Virus record (IMG/VR): IMGVR_UViG_3300044712_001940
Coordinates: 1-31,085 of that record
DNA length: 31,085 nucleotides
Source of the DNA: a virus
Direction: 5' to 3' (one strand)
Under the pieces are notes generated by a model that was given only the letters and a program-made list of their open reading frames with translations, made no database searches and was not told the origin of the DNA. Every line of letters begins with the position of its first letter. Positions within the stretch are counted from its first letter, which is position 1. The position numbers and the translations under genes are program-made. Shown piece after piece: positions 3,050 to 31,085 of the stretch.

Positions 3050-4618
3050 ATGTCCAAGCCATCATCCCCGCGTTCCAAAAGTCCCGCTTCCCCGCGTCGA
3101 GCCCGTGGCAAGCAGCCTGCCGCCGTTCAGCCCCGCGCCGTGACGGGTGATTTTTCCGCGGCATTTTCCGCGGCCAAGCGGAGCGGCTATCGCGGCTTCT
3201 TCTATTTCCCAACCCTCGATTCCGCTAAACAGATGCCACGGGCCACCCGCGACATCATCAATAAAAAGGCCAACTGGCTCTATAACAACGTCGCGCCCGT
3301 TCGGGCCGTCGTCGATGGTCTCTCGCTCGACGAAGCCGATACCGGCCTCTGGCCCAAGTGGACCACCAGCAACCCTGCATTTAACAAAGCCGCCACCGAC
3401 GCCTTCGACAACGAGTGTGGAGATCCCCGCTTCTTCCACGCTGCAGGCCGCGAGAGTTTCTACAGTGCCCAGCTTCTGATACGCCGCAGCATCCGCCTCT
3501 ATGGAGAGCTCTTCGCCCAGTTCCTTAGACCGCTGGCCTCCATGCTCCCTCCTCTATGTCATTTCGTGAATACCTGGCAGTGCGCCAATGGCAAGACCCC
3601 GCTGCCTCAGGACAAATGGGATGACGGCGTCATGAGCGACAAATTTGGGAGGGCCATCCAGTACAGGTTCCTCAAGAACGATGAGGGTACCGCCTGGGAT
3701 GATGTGAATGCCGAGGACGTGCTTCATCTCCATGATCAGTTCTGGAACGGCCAGCAGCGCGGCATGAGCGGACTGGCCTGCGTTGCCTCCAAGCTCTTCT
3801 CCATGGATGACATCGAGCGTGCCGAGATCAGCGGAACCCTCATGCGTACCCGGCTCGCCTACGCGATCACCAAGAAAGAGGATTCCGATGGAATGGCACC
3901 GCTGCTTCCAGGTGCCGCCGCCGTCGAGATCGATTCCCCGCAGGGTGGCAAAATGATCGTTCAGAAGATCACCGCCATGGATGACAGTGAAGTGGATGTG
4001 GCTGACCTTCCTGCAGGGCAGGACATGAAAGTGATCGAGAGCAACCGGGCTAGTTCCACCACCGAGTTCCTCAAGCATATGCTCCGCGGATTTGCCCAGA
4101 CCACACTCTACCCCGAGGAGTATGTCTTCGGTCTCGCCGGACTAGGGCAGGGGACGCTTGTCCGTCTGGTCCAGAAGAGAGTCCAGCGCATCAAGAACAG
4201 CGTCCGCCAGTTCCAGCTCCGGGATCAGTTTTGCCGCCGCTGGGTCATCTATTGGACTTGGCAGCGGATCGCCAGCGGCCGCTTCGACGGAGTCGAGGGT
4301 GGCATCCCCTCCGACTGGTGGAAGCACAAGATCATCATGCCTGCCGATGACACCGTCGATGTCGCACGCGAGGGCAAGCTCTACGATCAGCGCCTTGCCG
4401 ACGGCAACATGTCCCGCAGCGACTACCACGGCATGCAGGGGAGGGATGCCGAGGATGTCGAGGATGAGGTCATTGCCGAGAAGGTCCGCTTCGCCCGCAA
4501 GCTCAAGAAAGCCATGGATGCCAATCCCGATGTCTCCGATCTCATCAAGGCGCAATTCTCCGGAAAGACCGCCGCCATCACAGAACCCGCCGCTCCTCAA
4601 GATCCCGTCCAGCCATGA
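3050..4618 (+). CDS. Portal protein, lambda family
   Basis: This 522-aa protein should form the dodecameric ring at one capsid vertex through which DNA enters and leaves. Its size (lambda gpB is 533 aa), its place after the terminase and its content fit the lambda-type portal family: a basic, Ser/Pro-rich disordered N-terminus (~1-30), an alpha/beta body with WLYNNVAPVRAVVDGL (~76-91) and the segment LHLHDQFWNGQQRGMSGL (~226-243), then the long helical part MLRGFAQTTLYPEEYVFGL (~345-363) that resembles the tunnel helix and clip of these portals. The C-terminus (~485-522) is Lys-rich then Pro/Ala-rich and probably disordered. The stop overlaps the protease start by 4 bp (ATGA), so the two are probably translationally coupled. 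Gene 12 bp after the preceding stop. Confidence 0.9.
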   Translation: MSKPSSPRSKSPASPRRARGKQPAAVQPRAVTGDFSAAFSAAKRSGYRGFFYFPTLDSAKQMPRATRDIINKKANWLYNNVAPVRAVVDGLSLDEADTGLWPKWTTSNPAFNKAATDAFDNECGDPRFFHAAGRESFYSAQLLIRRSIRLYGELFAQFLRPLASMLPPLCHFVNTWQCANGKTPLPQDKWDDGVMSDKFGRAIQYRFLKNDEGTAWDDVNAEDVLHLHDQFWNGQQRGMSGLACVASKLFSMDDIERAEISGTLMRTRLAYAITKKEDSDGMAPLLPGAAAVEIDSPQGGKMIVQKITAMDDSEVDVADLPAGQDMKVIESNRASSTTEFLKHMLRGFAQTTLYPEEYVFGLAGLGQGTLVRLVQKRVQRIKNSVRQFQLRDQFCRRWVIYWTWQRIASGRFDGVEGGIPSDWWKHKIIMPADDTVDVAREGKLYDQRLADGNMSRSDYHGMQGRDAEDVEDEVIAEKVRFARKLKKAMDANPDVSDLIKAQFSGKTAAITEPAAPQDPVQP

Positions 4619-5493
4619 AAACCTCCAGCCCATCTCTCCACCTTCTCACCCGCCTCATGGCCCAGCCCTGGGCGATCCGGAGGGATGCCCTGCGGATGTT
4701 TACCCGCCTGACGCTCTCAGGCGAGCAAATCAAGGCCCGGGCCGAGCAGCCTCCCTATGCCATCAAATCGCGCGCTGGTTACGCCCCTGTCAATGACGAG
4801 GGGTGCTGCGCCTGCGACGAGCTGCCCGACATCCCGGCCCTGCCCGAGGGGTGCAAGGTCATCCTACCATGGGGGATTCTAGGCCGTGCCTGGAGCGAGT
4901 GCGAGAAATGGTGCATGGATCCCGTCGACGTTGACGAGATCATCAGCGAGATCGAGGAGAGCCCCGAGGGCTCGACCGTCATCCTCTGGTTCCGCTCCCC
5001 GGGTGGCATCATCACCGGCATCCCCGAGGCTGCCGGACAGCTCCGCCAGCTGGGAAAGACCCGCCGCCTCCTCGCCTTCACCGACGACAGCTGCTGCAGC
5101 GCCGCCTACTGGCTCGCCGCCCAGTGCTCCGAGATCCATGCCACCCCGACGGCCGACGTCGGCAGCATCGGAGTCTACGTCGCTCTCTACGACTACACCG
5201 AGTACATGAGCAAGATGGGGGTGAGCCTCGAGCTCTTCAAGGCCGGGACCATGAAAGCCATGGGGCTCGAGGGGAATCCCCTCAGCCCCGAGGAGTCCGC
5301 CTGGATCCAGAGCCGCGTCGACGAGGACTACCGCAGCTTCACTGCCGACGTCACCCGCAATCGCGCCATCGAGACCGCCACCATGCAGGGTCAGAGCTTC
5401 CGTGGGAAGGGGGCGCTGGCTTCCAACTTGATCGATGTCACATGGCCTTCCGCCTCGGCATTCTTCCAGGCGCTGGGCAGAGGAAAAATCTGA
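4615..5493 (+). CDS. Capsid maturation protease, S49 (SppA-like) family
   Basis: This 292-aa protein probably cleaves scaffold and capsid proteins inside the prohead, as lambda gpC does. The ClpP/crotonase-like fold is seen in RSPGGIITGI (~127-136, oxyanion region), the nucleophile segment DSCCSAAYWLA (~158-168, Ser162 probable) and the catalytic Lys region LFKAGTMKAMG (~207-217, Lys214 probable). PTADVGSIGVY (~178-188) is a typical S49 strand. It overlaps the portal by ATGA. In lambda the scaffold is an in-frame internal product of the protease gene; here a separate scaffold-like gene follows at 5812. The family call is strong and the exact catalytic residues are inferred. Confidence 0.9.
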   Translation: MKTSSPSLHLLTRLMAQPWAIRRDALRMFTRLTLSGEQIKARAEQPPYAIKSRAGYAPVNDEGCCACDELPDIPALPEGCKVILPWGILGRAWSECEKWCMDPVDVDEIISEIEESPEGSTVILWFRSPGGIITGIPEAAGQLRQLGKTRRLLAFTDDSCCSAAYWLAAQCSEIHATPTADVGSIGVYVALYDYTEYMSKMGVSLELFKAGTMKAMGLEGNPLSPEESAWIQSRVDEDYRSFTADVTRNRAIETATMQGQSFRGKGALASNLIDVTWPSASAFFQALGRGKI

Positions 5494-5503
5494 GCATTTT
5501 CAT

Positions 5504-5581
5504 CCGGGAGTGACCGTCGACTGGTAAGACCGCTGGCCCATAACCAGCAGCATGCGGGTTCAAATCCCGCCTCCCGCACCA
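5504..5581 (+). tRNA. tRNA-like gene, anticodon CAT (Met or lysidine-type Ile)
   Basis: A near-complete cloverleaf with CCA encoded at 5579-5581. The T arm is perfect (GCGGG 5554-5558, loop TTCAAAT, CCCGC 5566-5570). The anticodon arm is perfect (GCTGG 5532-5536, CCAGC 5544-5548) with loop CCCATAA and anticodon CAT at 5539-5541. The acceptor strands CCGGGAG (5504-5510) and CTCCCGC (5571-5577) pair in six of seven positions, leaving a C-C mismatch at 1-72. Oddities are C instead of U at position 33, a D stem of only three pairs (GTC/GAC), and five bases instead of two between acceptor and D stem. It may be a functional phage tRNA-Met or a degenerating one. Confidence 0.65.
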
Positions 5582-5585
5582 CCTC

Positions 5586-5623
5586 AAGCCCTTCTTCTAC
5601 ACGTGTAGAAGAAGGGCTTTTTT
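5586..5623 (+). terminator. Terminator-like 34-bp perfect palindrome plus T-run
   Basis: Bases 5586-5619 form a perfect palindrome (17-bp arms, AAGCCCTTCTTCTACAC and its complement), continued by a run of six T (5618-5623). As RNA it gives a very stable hairpin closed over the central ACGT. It follows the tRNA-like gene and would end the packaging/protease transcript. The core TTCTACACGTGTAGAA (5595-5610) recurs at 19177 and, degenerate, at 30658. Confidence 0.8.
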
Positions 5624-5641
5624 CTGGGCCTGAAAAAGCTG

Positions 5642-5667
5642 ACGGAAAAAACGGGCATTTTTTCCGT
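5642..5667. repeat. Inverted repeat, A/T stem hairpin
   Basis: ACGGAAAAAA (5642-5651) and TTTTTTCCGT (5658-5667) are exact complements around the loop CGGGCA. The T-rich right arm and A-rich left arm could terminate transcription in either direction. It lies in the 318-bp space between protease and scaffold genes, just after the larger palindrome. Confidence 0.55.
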
Positions 5668-5684
5668 TACGGATTTGCCCGCCA

Positions 5685-5719
5685 TTTGACGGCAGTCGCC
5701 GCCCGTCGACCGGTGCCGC
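5685..5719 (+). repeat. Intergenic repeat element, copy A (before scaffold/capsid)
   Basis: 35 bases that match 9130-9164 at 32 positions, starting with the shared TTTGACGGCAGTCGCC and ending in ACCGGTGCCGC. Weaker similarity continues towards the TTTGACAC box at 5777. Both copies lie in the only two long gaps of the head-tail region and precede genes for abundant proteins. Confidence 0.7.
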
Positions 5720-5776
5720 CCTGCGCTTTGCTTGGGCTGCCTGCGGCAGTCTTACGCGGCCGTTCCCACGGCCTTG

Positions 5777-5784
5777 TTTGACAC
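5777..5784 (+). promoter_or_regulatory. TTTGACAC box before scaffold gene
   Basis: Exact octamer 27 bases before ATG 5812, downstream of repeat copy A. GGAGGAAAG follows it but is too far from the ATG to be a Shine-Dalgarno site. Confidence 0.4.
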
Positions 5785-5811
5785 CGGAGGAAAGACGCAC
5801 ACCAAAACCTC

Positions 5812-6414
5812 ATGAACAAACGTCTCCTCCTCTCCCTGCTCCTTCTCTCCAAAGACGACCACTCCGGCGGCACCGCCGCTCCCGAAGAGGGCACTCCCGC
5901 AGGTGAGCCGATCGTCCCCCCTGCTGGCGAGCCAGCCGGTGAGCCCGCTAAGCAGGAAGAAGCCCCGCGAACCCTCCGTGCGGCCACGGCCAAGCTCGAC
6001 GAGATCCGTACCTCCCATGCCGAGCTGACCGGCAAACTGGCTCAGATCACCGGAGAGCGCGACCAGCTCAAGGGCCAGTTCGACACGGCTGTCGCCGAGG
6101 CCACCGCTTTCAAGAGCGAGATCACCGCCCTACGCGGCGAGCTCGAAACCGAAAAGGTTGCCCGCACCGAGGCCTCCGAAAAGGCCACCCGCGCCGAGGA
6201 GAACGTCGCCCGCCTCGAGCAGCTTTGCGCGATCCGCGGAGTCGACTCCAAGGCCGCCGTCTCCGCAGGTGCCGGAGAGCCCTCGGCCGCAGCCGGGCTC
6301 GATCCCTACGCCGCCTACCTCGCCGCCGTCGATGCTGGTGACAAGAAAGAAGCCCAGCGCCTCTATGCCGAGCACAAGTCAGCCATTTTTGCGGCCCGTT
6401 CGGGTCGCAAATAA
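5812..6414 (+). CDS. Scaffolding-like coiled-coil protein
   Basis: A 200-aa protein with a short hydrophobic N-terminus (RLLLSLLLLS), a Pro/Gly/Glu/Ala-rich linker (~20-50), a long predicted coiled coil (~55-140, heptad-like E/K/L/A pattern) and a helical C-terminus (~160-200, DPYAAYLAAV) ending in RSGRK. It lies between the capsid protease and the major capsid protein, the usual place for a scaffold, and its composition is that of phage scaffolds with a capsid-binding basic C-terminus. The N-terminal hydrophobic stretch is too short for a confident membrane helix. The start ATG has no Shine-Dalgarno site; the leader ACACCAAAACCTC is G-free. No catalytic motif is seen. A minor head protein is the main alternative. 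Confidence 0.7.
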   Translation: MNKRLLLSLLLLSKDDHSGGTAAPEEGTPAGEPIVPPAGEPAGEPAKQEEAPRTLRAATAKLDEIRTSHAELTGKLAQITGERDQLKGQFDTAVAEATAFKSEITALRGELETEKVARTEASEKATRAEENVARLEQLCAIRGVDSKAAVSAGAGEPSAAAGLDPYAAYLAAVDAGDKKEAQRLYAEHKSAIFAARSGRK

Positions 6415-6468
6415 TTTCCGGAGCCACCTCAGGAAAGCCAAGTAAACCCAACCCCAACACCCACACAC

Positions 6469-7326
6469 ATGTCCAACAGCATCGATGCAGGACTGGTGGC
6501 CAATGCCATCAGCGATCGCGCCCAGAAGACCTTGGCTAACCGCCTGGCCTCCCTGAGCCTCTTCAGCTCCGACTTCTCTGACGCCGTCAAGAAGTCCAAG
6601 GAGACCGTCAACGTCCGCCTCGTCACGGCGGGATCCACCACCCAGGTCAACCCGACCACCTTCAACTCCATCGGTGGCAGCACCGAGGGGACAGCGTCCG
6701 TCGCTCTCGACCACATCTACCAGCCCTTCGGCGTGGAGCTGGCCGACATCCAGAACGGCCACAAGCTCGAGCACCTCATCGATATCAACCTCGATGCGCT
6801 TGCCGACAAGATCTGGGCACTCGTCACGGCCAACATCACCGTCGCCAACTTCGGCGCCGCGACCGTTGCACCCGCCACGACCACGACCAAGCTCGCCGAT
6901 GGCGATCTTCCCAAACTGTGGGCAGCTGTCTCGAAGAGCACCCGCAAGGGTCTGGTGGTCTCACCGACCATCTACTCCAACCTCATCCCGACGTCCACCA
7001 CCTCGCTCAAGCTCGAGGCCGGTTCCTTCGGGTTCGACAATGGCATCTTCTATGCCAACCAGTTCTCGGGCCAGACCCGTCTGGTCGGTTTCAGCTGCTC
7101 GCCTGAGGCAATCGCCGTCGCCAGCGCATCGCCATCCCTGGATCATGTCCGCGGCCAGATGCTCGTGAGCGATGCCGTCATGCTCGAGCAGCTCGGGCTG
7201 GGCGTTTATTACAACGTCTGGGCCGACCCCAACACCCGCGCCCTCATCGCGAGCGCCGAGCTCATGTTCGGCTCCGCCAAGGGCATCACCTCCGGCACGA
7301 TGGGTCTCATCGTCGCCGCTGCCTAA
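6469..7326 (+). CDS. Major capsid protein (HK97-fold candidate)
   Basis: A 285-aa protein that should build the icosahedral shell. It has no hydrophobic or catalytic motifs but shows the features of HK97-fold capsid proteins: an amphipathic N-terminal helix (~5-35), an extended E-loop-like stretch rich in T/G/S/V (~45-75), a long helix DINLDALADKIWALVTANI (~105-123, spine helix candidate), and a C-terminal domain with LVSDAVMLEQLGLGVYYNVWADPNT (~227-251, A-domain or P-domain strand). Position directly after protease and scaffold supports the call. The leader (6430-6468) is A/C-rich and nearly G-free with no Shine-Dalgarno site, although this should be one of the most highly expressed genes. 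Two stacked hairpins follow the stop. Confidence 0.85.
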   Translation: MSNSIDAGLVANAISDRAQKTLANRLASLSLFSSDFSDAVKKSKETVNVRLVTAGSTTQVNPTTFNSIGGSTEGTASVALDHIYQPFGVELADIQNGHKLEHLIDINLDALADKIWALVTANITVANFGAATVAPATTTTKLADGDLPKLWAAVSKSTRKGLVVSPTIYSNLIPTSTTSLKLEAGSFGFDNGIFYANQFSGQTRLVGFSCSPEAIAVASASPSLDHVRGQMLVSDAVMLEQLGLGVYYNVWADPNTRALIASAELMFGSAKGITSGTMGLIVAAA

Positions 7327-11733: not shown

Positions 11734-12381
11734 ATGACCACAGCACTCATCCGCGGCCAGGCATTCGGAAACGGGATCCTTCAAGCCAAGAACAAATGGG
11801 TCGAGAACCGTGACGGCTCCTACACGATCGAGCGGACTTTCCGCGCCCTTGCCGTTGACTGGATGACCCGTTGCCCTGCCCGGGGAAGTATCCATCCTAG
11901 CGTCAGCAATGCCGTACTGATGGCCCGCAATGCCCAGCAGAGCAGCATCCCATTCCTGGTCGATGTCACACTGACCTATGAGACCCCGAAGGTAGAGAAT
12001 TTCACCGGGAGTATTCTCCCTCCCACGGAGTATTCCGAAACGGCCAATGCCGTCGAGGTTCCGATCGAGGCGCATCCTGATTTCGCCACCTTTGCCACCG
12101 AGGCCAACGGGGCAATCTTCGATGCCGATGGTAAATTCAAAGGGTGGACCAAAGAGTCAGAGTTCTCCGGATACATGACCTATCAGGTGGGCTCGATCAC
12201 CGAGAGTGTCACCACCTATTTCTGGTCCAAGCCGTCCAGTGTCTCGACACTGATCGGAAGCATTCAGGGAGGTTGGCGTGTGGCCAGCGGAGGAATCCAG
12301 CGGCGGTATCCCTATTGGGCACGGACCATCAACCGCGTCTGGAGTGAGAGGCCGTGGAATACCACCATCTACAAGAACTAG
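11734..12381 (+). CDS. Tail-tip protein, unassigned
   Basis: A 215-aa protein, first gene after the tape measure, where distal tail (Dit-like) proteins usually lie. It is beta-rich with several aromatic residues at the C-terminus (RRYPYWARTINRVWSERPWN). No lambda gpM/gpL signature or cysteine cluster was seen. Leader CCCACCATTACC has no Shine-Dalgarno site. Function is inferred from position only. Confidence 0.55.
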   Translation: MTTALIRGQAFGNGILQAKNKWVENRDGSYTIERTFRALAVDWMTRCPARGSIHPSVSNAVLMARNAQQSSIPFLVDVTLTYETPKVENFTGSILPPTEYSETANAVEVPIEAHPDFATFATEANGAIFDADGKFKGWTKESEFSGYMTYQVGSITESVTTYFWSKPSSVSTLIGSIQGGWRVASGGIQRRYPYWARTINRVWSERPWNTTIYKN

Positions 12382-20913: not shown

Positions 20914-21192
20914 ATGGAACTGCTCAACAAATCCCAGCTTGCCGCGGAGTTGGGGCGTACCCCGACTTACGTCTCGGGAATGATCCGCTGCGGCTATGTG
21001 ATGAAGTTCGGTTCCAAGACCACGCTCAAGCACGCCTTGGCTTGGCTGGCCGACCAATCTTCTTCTTCCTGCTCCGGCGGCTTTCGCTTGGCTCAGGCCT
21101 ATCCCGCGCTGGCTCTCCCAAAGTCTGCGCGTCGGCAGGGACTGCGCTTAGTGCCTGCACGCAGGCGCCGAGATCATCAACTTTCAGCCTAG
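20914..21192 (+). CDS. Small helix-turn-helix protein (excisionase-like), overlapping integrase antisense
   Basis: A 92-aa reading frame. The first ~47 residues (LNKSQLAAELGRTPTYVSGMIRCGYVMKFG..TLKHALAWLAD) are a compact HTH of the MerR/excisionase-like size. From ~48 on the reading frame is antisense to the integrase 3' end (21026-21192) and rich in S, R and A, so the C-terminal part may have little structure. The leader TTACCCTCCACCAACC has no Shine-Dalgarno site. As the gene beside int it may be the recombination directionality factor; a regulator is the alternative. Confidence 0.6.
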   Translation: MELLNKSQLAAELGRTPTYVSGMIRCGYVMKFGSKTTLKHALAWLADQSSSSCSGGFRLAQAYPALALPKSARRQGLRLVPARRRRDHQLSA

Positions 21193-22159
21193 TATAGACT
21201 GCATGCACCTCCGAGCTGCAATGACCGATGAAGCGAATGGCCTGTTGCTCGTTCACTCCGGCACGGGCCAGCTTGGTGATGACCGTCACGCGGGTACTGT
21301 GGAAGGTGAAGGGCATTCCGAGATCCTCCAGGGTGCGGCTCCAGTCGCGGGAGGCATTGCGGTGAAAGGGGCCCCAGGTGAGATGGCATCCGGTGTCCTT
21401 CAGCTCCTGAAGCAGCGGCTTGAGATCTGGCACCAGCTTGGTCGTGTGACGGCGCTTTCCCTTGATCGTGAAGGTGATCGTATCGTTGGTGAAGTCGACA
21501 TCCGAGAGGGGCAGGGATGTTTCGGCGAGGCGGCATCCCTGATTGATGGCGATGGCCCAGCTGATGCGCTGCCAGTCGGGAAGGGGGCTGGCTTCCACGG
21601 CTGCACGTTGAGCGGCGGTGATCTCGGGCTTTTCGGCCGCTGCGTCGGGTTTGAGCCCCATCTTGGAGGCGGGATTCTTGAGGATGTGCTCCCTGTTGAT
21701 GGCCTCGTTGAGGATCAGGCGAAGGACTCGCAGGTTGTGGATAGCGGTATTGCGGCAGGCGCCCTCGCCGATGCCTCCGTTTTCCTTGAGCTGCCTCCAG
21801 TCGATGTAGTCGAAGCACATCTTGCGGGTGATCTGACTGGCCGAGCGTACCTTGTGCTCCTCCAGGAAGTTCATGAGGCTCTCGAAGGCGCCCAGGTAAC
21901 TTTCCAGCGTGTTCTCTTGGGACTTGTAGGTGCTGGCCAGCCAGCGGGGCACCCAGGCATTAAGTTCCCGTTCGCTCCGCTCTCGGGGAGGGGCTGTGCG
22001 CTCTTCGACCTCCTTGGCGGCACGGAGCTTTTTGGCCTCCCGACTCTGTTGGACAGAGTCCCAGCGCTTTCCGGTGGACTCAGAAAAAAGATGGCCGGTG
22101 TCATCCATGTACCGAATCCACCAGAAAGGGCTGCGAGCCCGCTTGTATAGGAACGCCAT
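21026..22159 (-). CDS. Tyrosine-recombinase integrase
   Basis: This 377-aa protein carries out site-specific recombination at attP. Start MAFLYKRARSPFWWIRY (22159) is chosen because it is the typical N-terminal arm-binding start; an in-frame ATG at 22237 would add a hydrophobic, atypical 26 aa and run through the arm-type repeats. Residues ~65-165 form the SAM-like core-binding domain. Catalytic residues are visible: Arg210 (GCRLAE), Lys233 (TIKGKRR), His287-x-x-Arg290 (HSTR), His313 (IGHCS) and Tyr322 (VHAVYTR). A basic tail (SRRSRKKKIGRPAKPRR) follows. It reads leftwards, away from attP, and its 3' end overlaps the HTH gene by 167 bp. Confidence 0.93.
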   Translation of the reverse strand: MAFLYKRARSPFWWIRYMDDTGHLFSESTGKRWDSVQQSREAKKLRAAKEVEERTAPPRERSERELNAWVPRWLASTYKSQENTLESYLGAFESLMNFLEEHKVRSASQITRKMCFDYIDWRQLKENGGIGEGACRNTAIHNLRVLRLILNEAINREHILKNPASKMGLKPDAAAEKPEITAAQRAAVEASPLPDWQRISWAIAINQGCRLAETSLPLSDVDFTNDTITFTIKGKRRHTTKLVPDLKPLLQELKDTGCHLTWGPFHRNASRDWSRTLEDLGMPFTFHSTRVTVITKLARAGVNEQQAIRFIGHCSSEVHAVYTRLKVDDLGACVQALSAVPADAQTLGEPARDRPEPSESRRSRKKKIGRPAKPRRA

Positions 22160-22327
22160 AGTGTCACCAGTGTCACTTAAAACCAAAAAAAAACCAACAG
22201 AATCAGAGAAAACCAAAGAGAAGCTATGAAAAAACAACAGAGATGCAATAATTCATGGTTCGAATCCATGCGGGGCAGCACCTGTATTTATAAGGGTCTG
22301 CGGGCTAGTGTCACTAAAAGTGTCACT
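22160..22327. other. attP: two pairs of 9-bp arm-type sites around a tRNA 3'-end core
   Basis: Left pair: AGTGTCACC (22160-22168) and AGTGTCACT (22169-22177). Right pair: AGTGTCACT at 22307-22315 and 22319-22327. Between them, 22254-22270 is a perfect tRNA T arm (CATGG, loop TTCGAAT, CCATG), followed by CGGGGCA and G (22271-22278), which reads as an acceptor 3' strand and discriminator base. U1-A72 with G73 would suit a tRNA-Gln-like target, a weak inference. The layout, arm sites on both sides of a tRNA-like core next to int, is that of an attP. Its completeness implies a non-integrated molecule. Confidence 0.75.
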
Positions 22328-22347: not shown

Positions 22348-22458
22348 GTGAGCGCCCTCTTTTTTGCCCTGGTGGGTCTAGTCCTTTGGATCGGCCGGCG
22401 TGAGTTGGCGGAGGTTCTGGCCGGGCTGATGGCCCGCTTCGTGGGAGGTGCACGATGA
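22348..22458 (+). CDS. 36-aa membrane peptide
   Basis: Starts at GTG 22348 behind a strong AGGAGGT, six bases spacing. The product has one hydrophobic helix (SALFFALVGLVLWIG), then RRELAEVLAGLMARF and ends in GGAR. Its stop overlaps the next ATG (ATGA). It is the first gene of the rightward early region, directly after attP. No family recognised; the perfect ribosome site, hydrophobic segment and coupling to the next gene support it being real. Confidence 0.7.
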   Translation: MSALFFALVGLVLWIGRRELAEVLAGLMARFVGGAR

Positions 22459-24758: not shown

Positions 24759-26510
24759 ATGAGCAAGACTCCTGTTTTCACGTTTGTTCCCCTCGAGGAG
24801 ATCGCCCCGAGTCCCACCAATCCGCGGAGCCATTTCCCTGAGGAGTATATCTCCGAGCTGGCCGCCTCGATAGCTACCCGTGGGATTATTCAGCCACTAC
24901 TTGTCCGGTCAACCGATGATCTCCCATCGCCCGTCGGTAAGCAGTATGAGTTGATCGCCGGAGAGTGCCGCCTAAGGGCCTCGAAGGAGGCCGGTCTCTC
25001 GGAGGTTCCGGTCATTGTTCGGGATGATCTCTCGGAGAATGATGTGGTGGAGCTGCAGTTGATCGAGAATCTCCAGCGTCGGGATCTCGATGCACTGGAA
25101 GAGGCCGACAGCTACGCTGCGCTTCTGGATCTGACGGATGGTGATCGGAAGAGGCACACGGTGGAGTCCCTTGCTGAAGCGATCTCAAAGTCGATCCACT
25201 ATATCCACCAGCGGCTGAGCCTTCGCAAGCTGCCCGAGTCGGCACGGGTGGCCATGCGATCCGGAGAGCTCTCCTTCTCGGTAGCGCGGCTGGTGGCCTC
25301 GATACCATCCTCTCCGCTTCGGGAGAAGGCCCTCGAGGAGGTGCTGCACCCTACTTATGAGGATGAGCCTCTTACGGCACGCAAGGCGGCCTCCCATATC
25401 CGGGAACACTACATGATCGATCTAAAGAGTGCCTCTTTCGACCGTGAGGATGCGGAGCTGGTCCCTGTGGAGTTCGACCCAATGGGGAACCGGCTGCATG
25501 GCGGATCCTGCACGGACTGCCCGTGGCTCTCGGGGAACTCCCGCGAGTCGGATGAAACCACCGAGGGATCGAAGAATCTTTGCATGCACCCAGGATGCCA
25601 CTCGATGAAAGAGGATGCTGCTTGGGAGAATCTCCGTGCGGAGGCTCTGGCTGCAGGGAAAAAGGTACTTTCGGAAAATGAAGCCGAGAAGGTGCTCAAT
25701 CCCTGGGGCGGTATCGCCTGGAATTCCCCCTATGTGCCCCTTAAGGATGAGGTGCTGCCGTCTGATCTTGCGGACTCTTCCGGAAAACCTCCTACCTGGA
25801 AGAAGCTGCTGTCTTCAGTCGATGTGAAGCCGGAGATCGTGGTGATCCGCGATCATGGGAAGGCCATCGAGGTGGTCGATCGGCGTCAGGCCGTGGCGGC
25901 AATCAGACTGCAGGCCAAGAAAAGCGGTGGGGTCTGCCCGCTGCGCTCCCGCGGTGAGGAGGAGAGTCCTGCTCAGAAGGATGCTGCCCATGCTGAAAGA
26001 AGCGCGGGGAAGGTGGAGCGCATCATGCGCTATGAAATGGTGCATGGAGCTTTTGATGAGATCGTGTTGAAGTTTCACAAGGAAGGGGTCGATTCCTCAG
26101 TCCTCTGGCCGCGTTTGCTTGATTTAGCTCTGGAAAATGCGGGTTTCTCCGGGATTGAGTTGGTCTCGAAGTGGCTCTGCGTGAATGAGTCGGATGCTTG
26201 CATAAGAGAGGCTCTAATGCAGTACCCAGTTGGTGATGCAGCGTCTCTTGCTCCTTATGTGCTCATCGTGCTCATTGCGGCTCATATCGATGGTGAATGT
26301 GAGTATCCATCAACTGGTGAATCTCCATTCATTGATTCCTTCCGCAAGCTCCTTGATTCGCTATCGATCGATTCTCTCGGGATTGCAGAGCGGGTGAAGG
26401 CTGCCCATGCCGAGGAGCTGAAGTCGCTCCGTAATGCCGCCAAGCCAAAGAGCAAGGTGAAAAAAAAGGCGGGAAAGAATTTCGCCGCAGCCGAGGAGGT
26501 GGAGGCGTGA
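24759..26510 (+). CDS. ParB-family DNA-binding protein, no partner ParA
   Basis: A 583-aa protein. The ParB/Srx N-terminus has NPRSHF (~21-26), AGECRLRASKEAGL (~67-80, box II variant with C for R) and LIENLQRRDLDALEEADSY (~101-119), followed by a HTH domain (~133-182, VESLAEAISKSIHYIHQRL). Residues ~250-285 hold a cysteine cluster (GSCTDCPWL, CMHPGCH) seen in phage/plasmid ParB relatives. The C-terminus is Lys-rich. No ParA ATPase is encoded, so it may not segregate DNA but rather act in replication or transcription; the iterons at 30731 are possible targets. It ends with AGGAGGT-GGAGGC, the ribosome site of the next gene. Confidence 0.85.
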   Translation: MSKTPVFTFVPLEEIAPSPTNPRSHFPEEYISELAASIATRGIIQPLLVRSTDDLPSPVGKQYELIAGECRLRASKEAGLSEVPVIVRDDLSENDVVELQLIENLQRRDLDALEEADSYAALLDLTDGDRKRHTVESLAEAISKSIHYIHQRLSLRKLPESARVAMRSGELSFSVARLVASIPSSPLREKALEEVLHPTYEDEPLTARKAASHIREHYMIDLKSASFDREDAELVPVEFDPMGNRLHGGSCTDCPWLSGNSRESDETTEGSKNLCMHPGCHSMKEDAAWENLRAEALAAGKKVLSENEAEKVLNPWGGIAWNSPYVPLKDEVLPSDLADSSGKPPTWKKLLSSVDVKPEIVVIRDHGKAIEVVDRRQAVAAIRLQAKKSGGVCPLRSRGEEESPAQKDAAHAERSAGKVERIMRYEMVHGAFDEIVLKFHKEGVDSSVLWPRLLDLALENAGFSGIELVSKWLCVNESDACIREALMQYPVGDAASLAPYVLIVLIAAHIDGECEYPSTGESPFIDSFRKLLDSLSIDSLGIAERVKAAHAEELKSLRNAAKPKSKVKKKAGKNFAAAEEVEA

Positions 26511-31073: not shown

Positions 31074-31085
31074 GTTGAGCGGGTG
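31074..31085. repeat. 12-bp terminal direct repeat (right copy)
   Basis: GTTGAGCGGGTG, identical to bases 1-12. See the left copy for the alternatives. Confidence 0.75.

Follow-up and report, generated by a model that had tools for sequence, protein, structure and literature searches.

In this work, we provide evidence that a 168-base stretch at positions 22160–22327 of a viral DNA (the window, 31,085 nucleotides analysed over its full length) is a genuine attP of a tyrosine integrase. Very probably, it serves a temperate phage with a lambda-type Int, whose N-terminal domain would hold pairs of AGTGTCACY repeats, while its other domains would act on a core equal to the 3′ end of tRNA-Gln. The site belongs to a known kind, i.e., a tyrosine-integrase attP at a tRNA. 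The first-pass annotation, which had read it as an attP with a tRNA-end core, was right in its observation and essentially right in its interpretation. The more surprising part is not the attP itself, but the apparent joint switching of the arm sites and the arm-binding domain among relatives of this integrase.

The left arm pair consists of AGTGTCACC (22160–22168) and, 9 bp further on, AGTGTCACT (22169–22177), the former directly abutting the int start codon (22159–22157), and the latter lying 89 bp from the T-loop of the core. An A-rich spacer of 76 bp (22178–22253), with CAGAGA repeats near the core, separates this pair from the core (22251–22279), which is identical to the 3′ end of tRNA-Gln, comprising the T-arm and the acceptor strand. 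The two right arm sites, both AGTGTCACT, occupy 22307–22315, which is 49 bp from the T-loop, and 22319–22327, 12 bp further; all these elements are given on the plus strand. Thus, the earlier description of AGTGTCACY as occurring twice on each side of the core, spaced 9 bp on the left and 12 bp on the right, proved exact (22160, 22169, 22307 and 22319), and the attP was indeed compact and adjacent to int, with the left pair touching the start codon. The sequence AGTGTCAC is present in five copies in the 31-kb window, four within the attP and the fifth alone at 12205, and none of 60 dinucleotide shuffles of the whole window yielded either arm pair; a separate shuffle of the 168-bp attP was uninformative, poly-A words recurring in it. 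The right pair is located just before the start of a small ORF at 22349. A sigma-70 promoter scan of the attP found no promoter.

The int gene (21026–22159, minus strand) encodes a tyrosine recombinase of 377 aa (Pfam PF13102 and PF00589; PHROG integrase, 3.7e-34), with an arm-binding domain (residues 1–55), a core-binding domain and a catalytic domain. The best PDB match of its AlphaFold model (pLDDT 85.7) is lambda Int. The N-terminal domain is well-scored in the model and comprises strands 3–6, 12–18 and 24–32 followed by a helix, 36–55; an arm-binding fold of three strands and a helix has been described (PMC8138268). The catalytic residues R210, H287, R290, H313 and Y322 are invariant in 18 relatives, and K233 in the four closest ones. 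Sequence and model together indicate that the window Int is a complete tyrosine recombinase with a predicted arm-binding domain. DNA-level and protein-level searches of annotated phages gave no DNA match, weak integrase matches and no close relative, and a viral scan gave no matches when queried with the Int sequence alone or with the 27-base core; the relatives in IMG/VR were recovered with an alignment and a shorter core, and others came from whole genomes.

We compared the core with bacterial tRNA genes. The core sequence CATGGTTCGAATCCATGCGGGGCA (22254–22277) includes the T-stem CATGG/CCATG, the T-loop TTCGAAT (22259–22265) and the acceptor strand CGGGGCA (22271–22277). Its 24 bases have an exact match in 32 contigs of GTDB species genomes, nearly all from Spartobacteria/Chthoniobacterales, other Verrucomicrobia or Omnitrophota. 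ARAGORN predicted a tRNA-Gln, mostly with the anticodon TTG, on 29 of these contigs, where the match falls on the T-arm and the acceptor strand; two of the remaining three are cut at the contig end, and one (L023) carries a phage attP. The core, proposed earlier to resemble a tRNA T-arm and acceptor end, is therefore the 3′ end of tRNA-Gln. Its span had been put at 22254–22282; the identity with host tRNA was borne out, but the block runs from 22251 to about 22279, short of 22282. The T-loop (7 bp) may serve as the strand crossover site; none of the attL/attR pairs found differed informatively within the identity block. The second attP with a matching core, that of L023, resides on a contig of 35.7 kb that was assigned to the bin of a Spartobacteria MAG. 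Because the core matches both tRNA-Gln and the L023 attP in such genomes, the phage host is probably a bacterium of the Spartobacteria/Verrucomicrobia type. For the little-studied phages of such bacteria, the window provides a compact and complete attP with a clear tRNA address, which is useful for integration vectors.

The plan of the attP is shared by related phages. Nine phages with a related Int have a homologous attP beside int, and eight of them keep the 9/12 spacing; homologues of the paired left sites are found in the same place in L034, L066, L086–L090, L092 and L089/L148. Within the tRNA-Gln set (the window, L034, L066, L086, L087, L088, L089, L090 and L092), the inner left arm site lies 89 bp from the T-loop except in L092 (101 bp), and the spacer is 76 bp in seven of the eight phages compared and 88 bp in L092. 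The right pair is 49 bp from the T-loop in the window and L086–L089, and 58–59 bp in L034, L066, L090 and L092, roughly one helical turn thus separating the two distance classes. In L093, whose core corresponds to a different tRNA, the arm spacing is 10/10. The arm sequences vary as AGTGT followed by CAC, AGC, AGG or GCC: AGTGTCACY is shared by the window and L092, AGTGTAGCN is found in L034, L086–L088 and L090, AGTGTAGGG in L066 and L037, and AGTGTGCCY in L089 and L093. Hence, the repeats near related integrases are conserved in place and spacing. Since the core also matches a tRNA 3′ end, both conditions under which the first-pass annotation would have been refuted turned out false. The CAGAGA repeats are conserved as well, with 12 occurrences in the spacers of eight phages against 1.06 expected, mostly at fixed positions (−16 and −38 or −50 relative to the core), which makes them candidate sites for an excisionase, such as the HTH protein described below, or for a host bending protein. 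The 57.8-kb IMG/VR contig L148/L089 has ends that overlap across the attP (about 115–125 bp) and was assembled as a circle.

Furthermore, the attL and attR junctions that the first-pass annotation suggested seeking in related lysogens were found in four genomes. As the window had led us to predict, integrated relatives have at one end the regenerated tRNA, the core and the right pair, and at the other, the displaced core, the left pair and int. The 25.6-kb element of G031 is bounded on one side by a complete tRNA-Gly(CCC) with the right pair (GTGCAGTA twice) after it, and on the other by the displaced core with the left pair and int; G129 bears a 4.1-kb element in tRNA-Phe(GAA), G084 an 80-kb element at the same core as G031, the tRNA being cut by the contig end, and G466 a 4-kb element in tRNA-Gly with junctions as predicted. 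In G147, the attP is present on one contig and an intact, empty tRNA-Phe attB on another. A search for a lysogen of the window phage itself found none, the junction integrases being about 33–36% identical to the window Int.

Some observations concern the elements themselves. The 4.1-kb element of G129 (L084, about 3126–7288 of G129:C53) contains int, an HTH gene and a few others, one of which resembles, by eye, a replication protein, and represents a minimal mobile element. A sister integrase group (L049 in G102:C20, L043 in G127:C3, L046, L048 and L050) targets the 5′ rather than the 3′ end of tRNA-Gln. The far end is occupied in G102 and G127 by a complete tRNA-Gln(CTG), which in G102 comes immediately after the right arm pair, and the first ~21 bases of the tRNA are repeated beside int, 30 to 44 kb away; therefore, the upstream region of the tRNA is separated from the regenerated gene. 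The 24-kb IMG/VR contig L064/L080 encodes a protein 79% identical to that of the window ORF at 22455 and ends at a complete tRNA-Gln, reached from the 5′ side of the tRNA with a GTTTCACA pair in between; it seems that this close relative integrates at the opposite end of the tRNA.

The window had been read as a non-integrated molecule, and this is supported by both arms flanking one core, by a search for tRNA genes that found none in the window, and by a 12-bp terminal direct repeat, GTTGAGCGGGTG, at 1–12 and 31074–31085, each copy being a candidate cohesive end. GpA-type terminase genes adjoin the 12-base repeats. A 12-bp direct repeat is likewise found at the ends of the L065/L092 contig, with a distant terminase relative just inside; set in the same orientation as that of the window, it reads GTTGGGCGCACT. 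Such repeats, placed beside terminase genes of the GpA type, are compatible with cohesive ends that were filled in during library preparation, and we therefore regard the window as probably the full linear genome packaged in the virion; the terminal repeat may possibly be an assembly artefact. This phage also encodes, in addition to the integrase, a ParB-like protein of 583 aa (24759–26510).

The comparison of arm sequences with integrase sequences provided the lead to the joint switching. In a tree of Int residues from 60 to the end, elements with GTGCAAGT and GTGCAGTA arms are intermixed. The integrases of L116 and L121 are 93% identical from residue 60 to the end and 52% identical in residues 1–33, and their arms differ. 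T at arm base 5 is accompanied by W in alignment column 14, and C by F or Y, with one exception each way; this column ranks second of all Int columns for base 5, and column 16 ranks first for base 8. When the N-terminal columns as a whole were compared with the rest of Int for their information about the arms, the difference was not significant for bases 5, 6 and 7 and gave p 0.047 for base 8. Arm motifs were assigned manually, and the covariation is confounded by descent; in a test of independent pairs, about 3/3 and 3/4 informative pairs pointed in the expected direction and none against it, too few for significance. The right arm of L089 agrees with its known left arm, which is a weak test of the arm code; the L085 contig starts at the int ATG. 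The switching of the arm sequence together with the Int N-terminal domain is thus a lead, not a proof.

As a tentative proposal, to which we give somewhat less than an even chance, the arm sites and the Int arm-binding domain may form a swappable module (with the arm code AGTG[T/C]NNN, recognized mainly through residues 14, 16, 24 and 26 in strands 2 and 3), which would keep elements at one tRNA from recombining each other's ends. Because the left arm pair and the N-terminal domain are adjacent in the DNA, they could be exchanged as one short cassette. In G466 (L151, 8005–13868 of G466:C84), a tandem array at one tRNA-Gly comprises two elements with different arms: GTGCAGT arms stand at both ends of the first element, and after it comes a remnant that has GTGCAAGT right arms but lacks int. 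This array fits the idea that arms help to keep neighbouring elements apart. The natural arm/domain swaps in this family make the rules of arm choice by integrases, as well as the separation of elements at one tRNA, testable.

A small winged-helix protein of 92 aa is encoded at 20914–21192 (plus strand), convergently with int and overlapping its 3′ end. Its gene is a conserved partner, standing beside int and convergent with it in 18 relatives, and the 4.1-kb element of G129 retains a similar gene together with int. The fold is winged-helix and weakly MerR/Xis-like; known excisionases give weak structure matches (Pukovnik Xis, Z 4.3; RdfS, Z 4.1; TorI, Z 3.0) and phage DNA-packaging proteins somewhat better ones (Z 6.5–6.8), and a PDB profile search with the protein found no significant relative. 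Probably, it is a recombination directionality (excision) factor. The AGTGTCACY repeats might be its sites, with the arm sites of Int located elsewhere, e.g., in the CAGAGA repeats, since the excisionases of other phages use direct repeats separated by roughly one helical turn (PMC7498355) and CAGAGA is conserved too. However, an excisionase would not be expected to have matching pairs of sites on the two arms, spaced 9 and 12 bp, and the arm sequence follows the N-terminal domain of Int when compared with Int sequences, so we regard this explanation as improbable.

An even slimmer chance is left to the idea that the pairs are operators of a phage repressor which flank the attachment site, with Int using the core only. 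Operators could indeed be expected at these places, since the left pair adjoins the start of int and the right pair shortly precedes the ORF at 22349. However, in many phages a pair is found at a fixed distance from the core on either side, integrated elements retain the pairs at their two ends, and the sequence of the pairs changes with the Int N-terminal domain while the C-terminal part remains 93% identical. Chance repeats beside a decayed tRNA fragment, favoured by nothing other than the shortness of the repeats, were rejected as having a negligible probability in view of the shuffles, and are refuted by the geometry conserved in nine phages.

We therefore return to the lambda-type reading, in which Int itself would bind the repeats. 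The N-terminal domain is predicted to hold the paired arm sites, and the core-binding and catalytic domains would act on the core, the 3′ end of the host tRNA-Gln; the reaction may also depend on a host bending protein, such as IHF, between arm and core, where the sequence is A-rich. Recombination would regenerate the tRNA by linking its 5′ part with the core and right arm pair of the phage, and at the opposite end the displaced tRNA fragment would adjoin the left arm pair and int. The contact of the left pair with the start codon suggests that bound Int may repress its own gene. The HTH protein would probably bind between the left arm and the core, turning the reaction to excision.

The window resembles phage lambda in having a tyrosine integrase that is predicted to be hetero-bivalent and arm-type sites on both arms; in lambda Int, the N-terminal domain serves the arm sites, and the core-binding and catalytic domains serve the core (PMC4880445). 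Unlike lambda with its five arm sites, the window attP has two plus two, and its core matches part of a tRNA gene; int begins at the left pair and runs in the direction leading away from the core, and the HTH gene is convergent with int and overlaps its 3′ end. In the attP sites of P2 and HP1, the core is flanked on either side by two arm sites in direct repeat. The attP of 186 combines Int arm and core sites with excisionase repeats (PMC7498355). The paired direct repeats flanking the window core resemble the P2/186/HP1 type. In mycobacteriophage Ms6, which uses the T-loop of tRNA-Ala, a 26-bp core spans the T-loop and the 3′ end of the tRNA gene, with strand exchange probably in the 7-bp T-loop (PMC1762012). 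The window core likewise runs from the T-arm to the tRNA 3′ end, whereas the host and the integrase are different, and a crossover in the T-loop is a prediction for the window. Finally, in KplE1 (IntS/TorI), sites of the attachment region overlap the start of int, and the gene is autoregulated by Int and the directionality factor (PMC2951348). The window also has attachment-region sites at the start of the integrase gene, but the KplE1 int promoter overlaps attL beside the tRNA, whereas integration would place the window int beside the displaced tRNA fragment, at the end opposite the regenerated tRNA.
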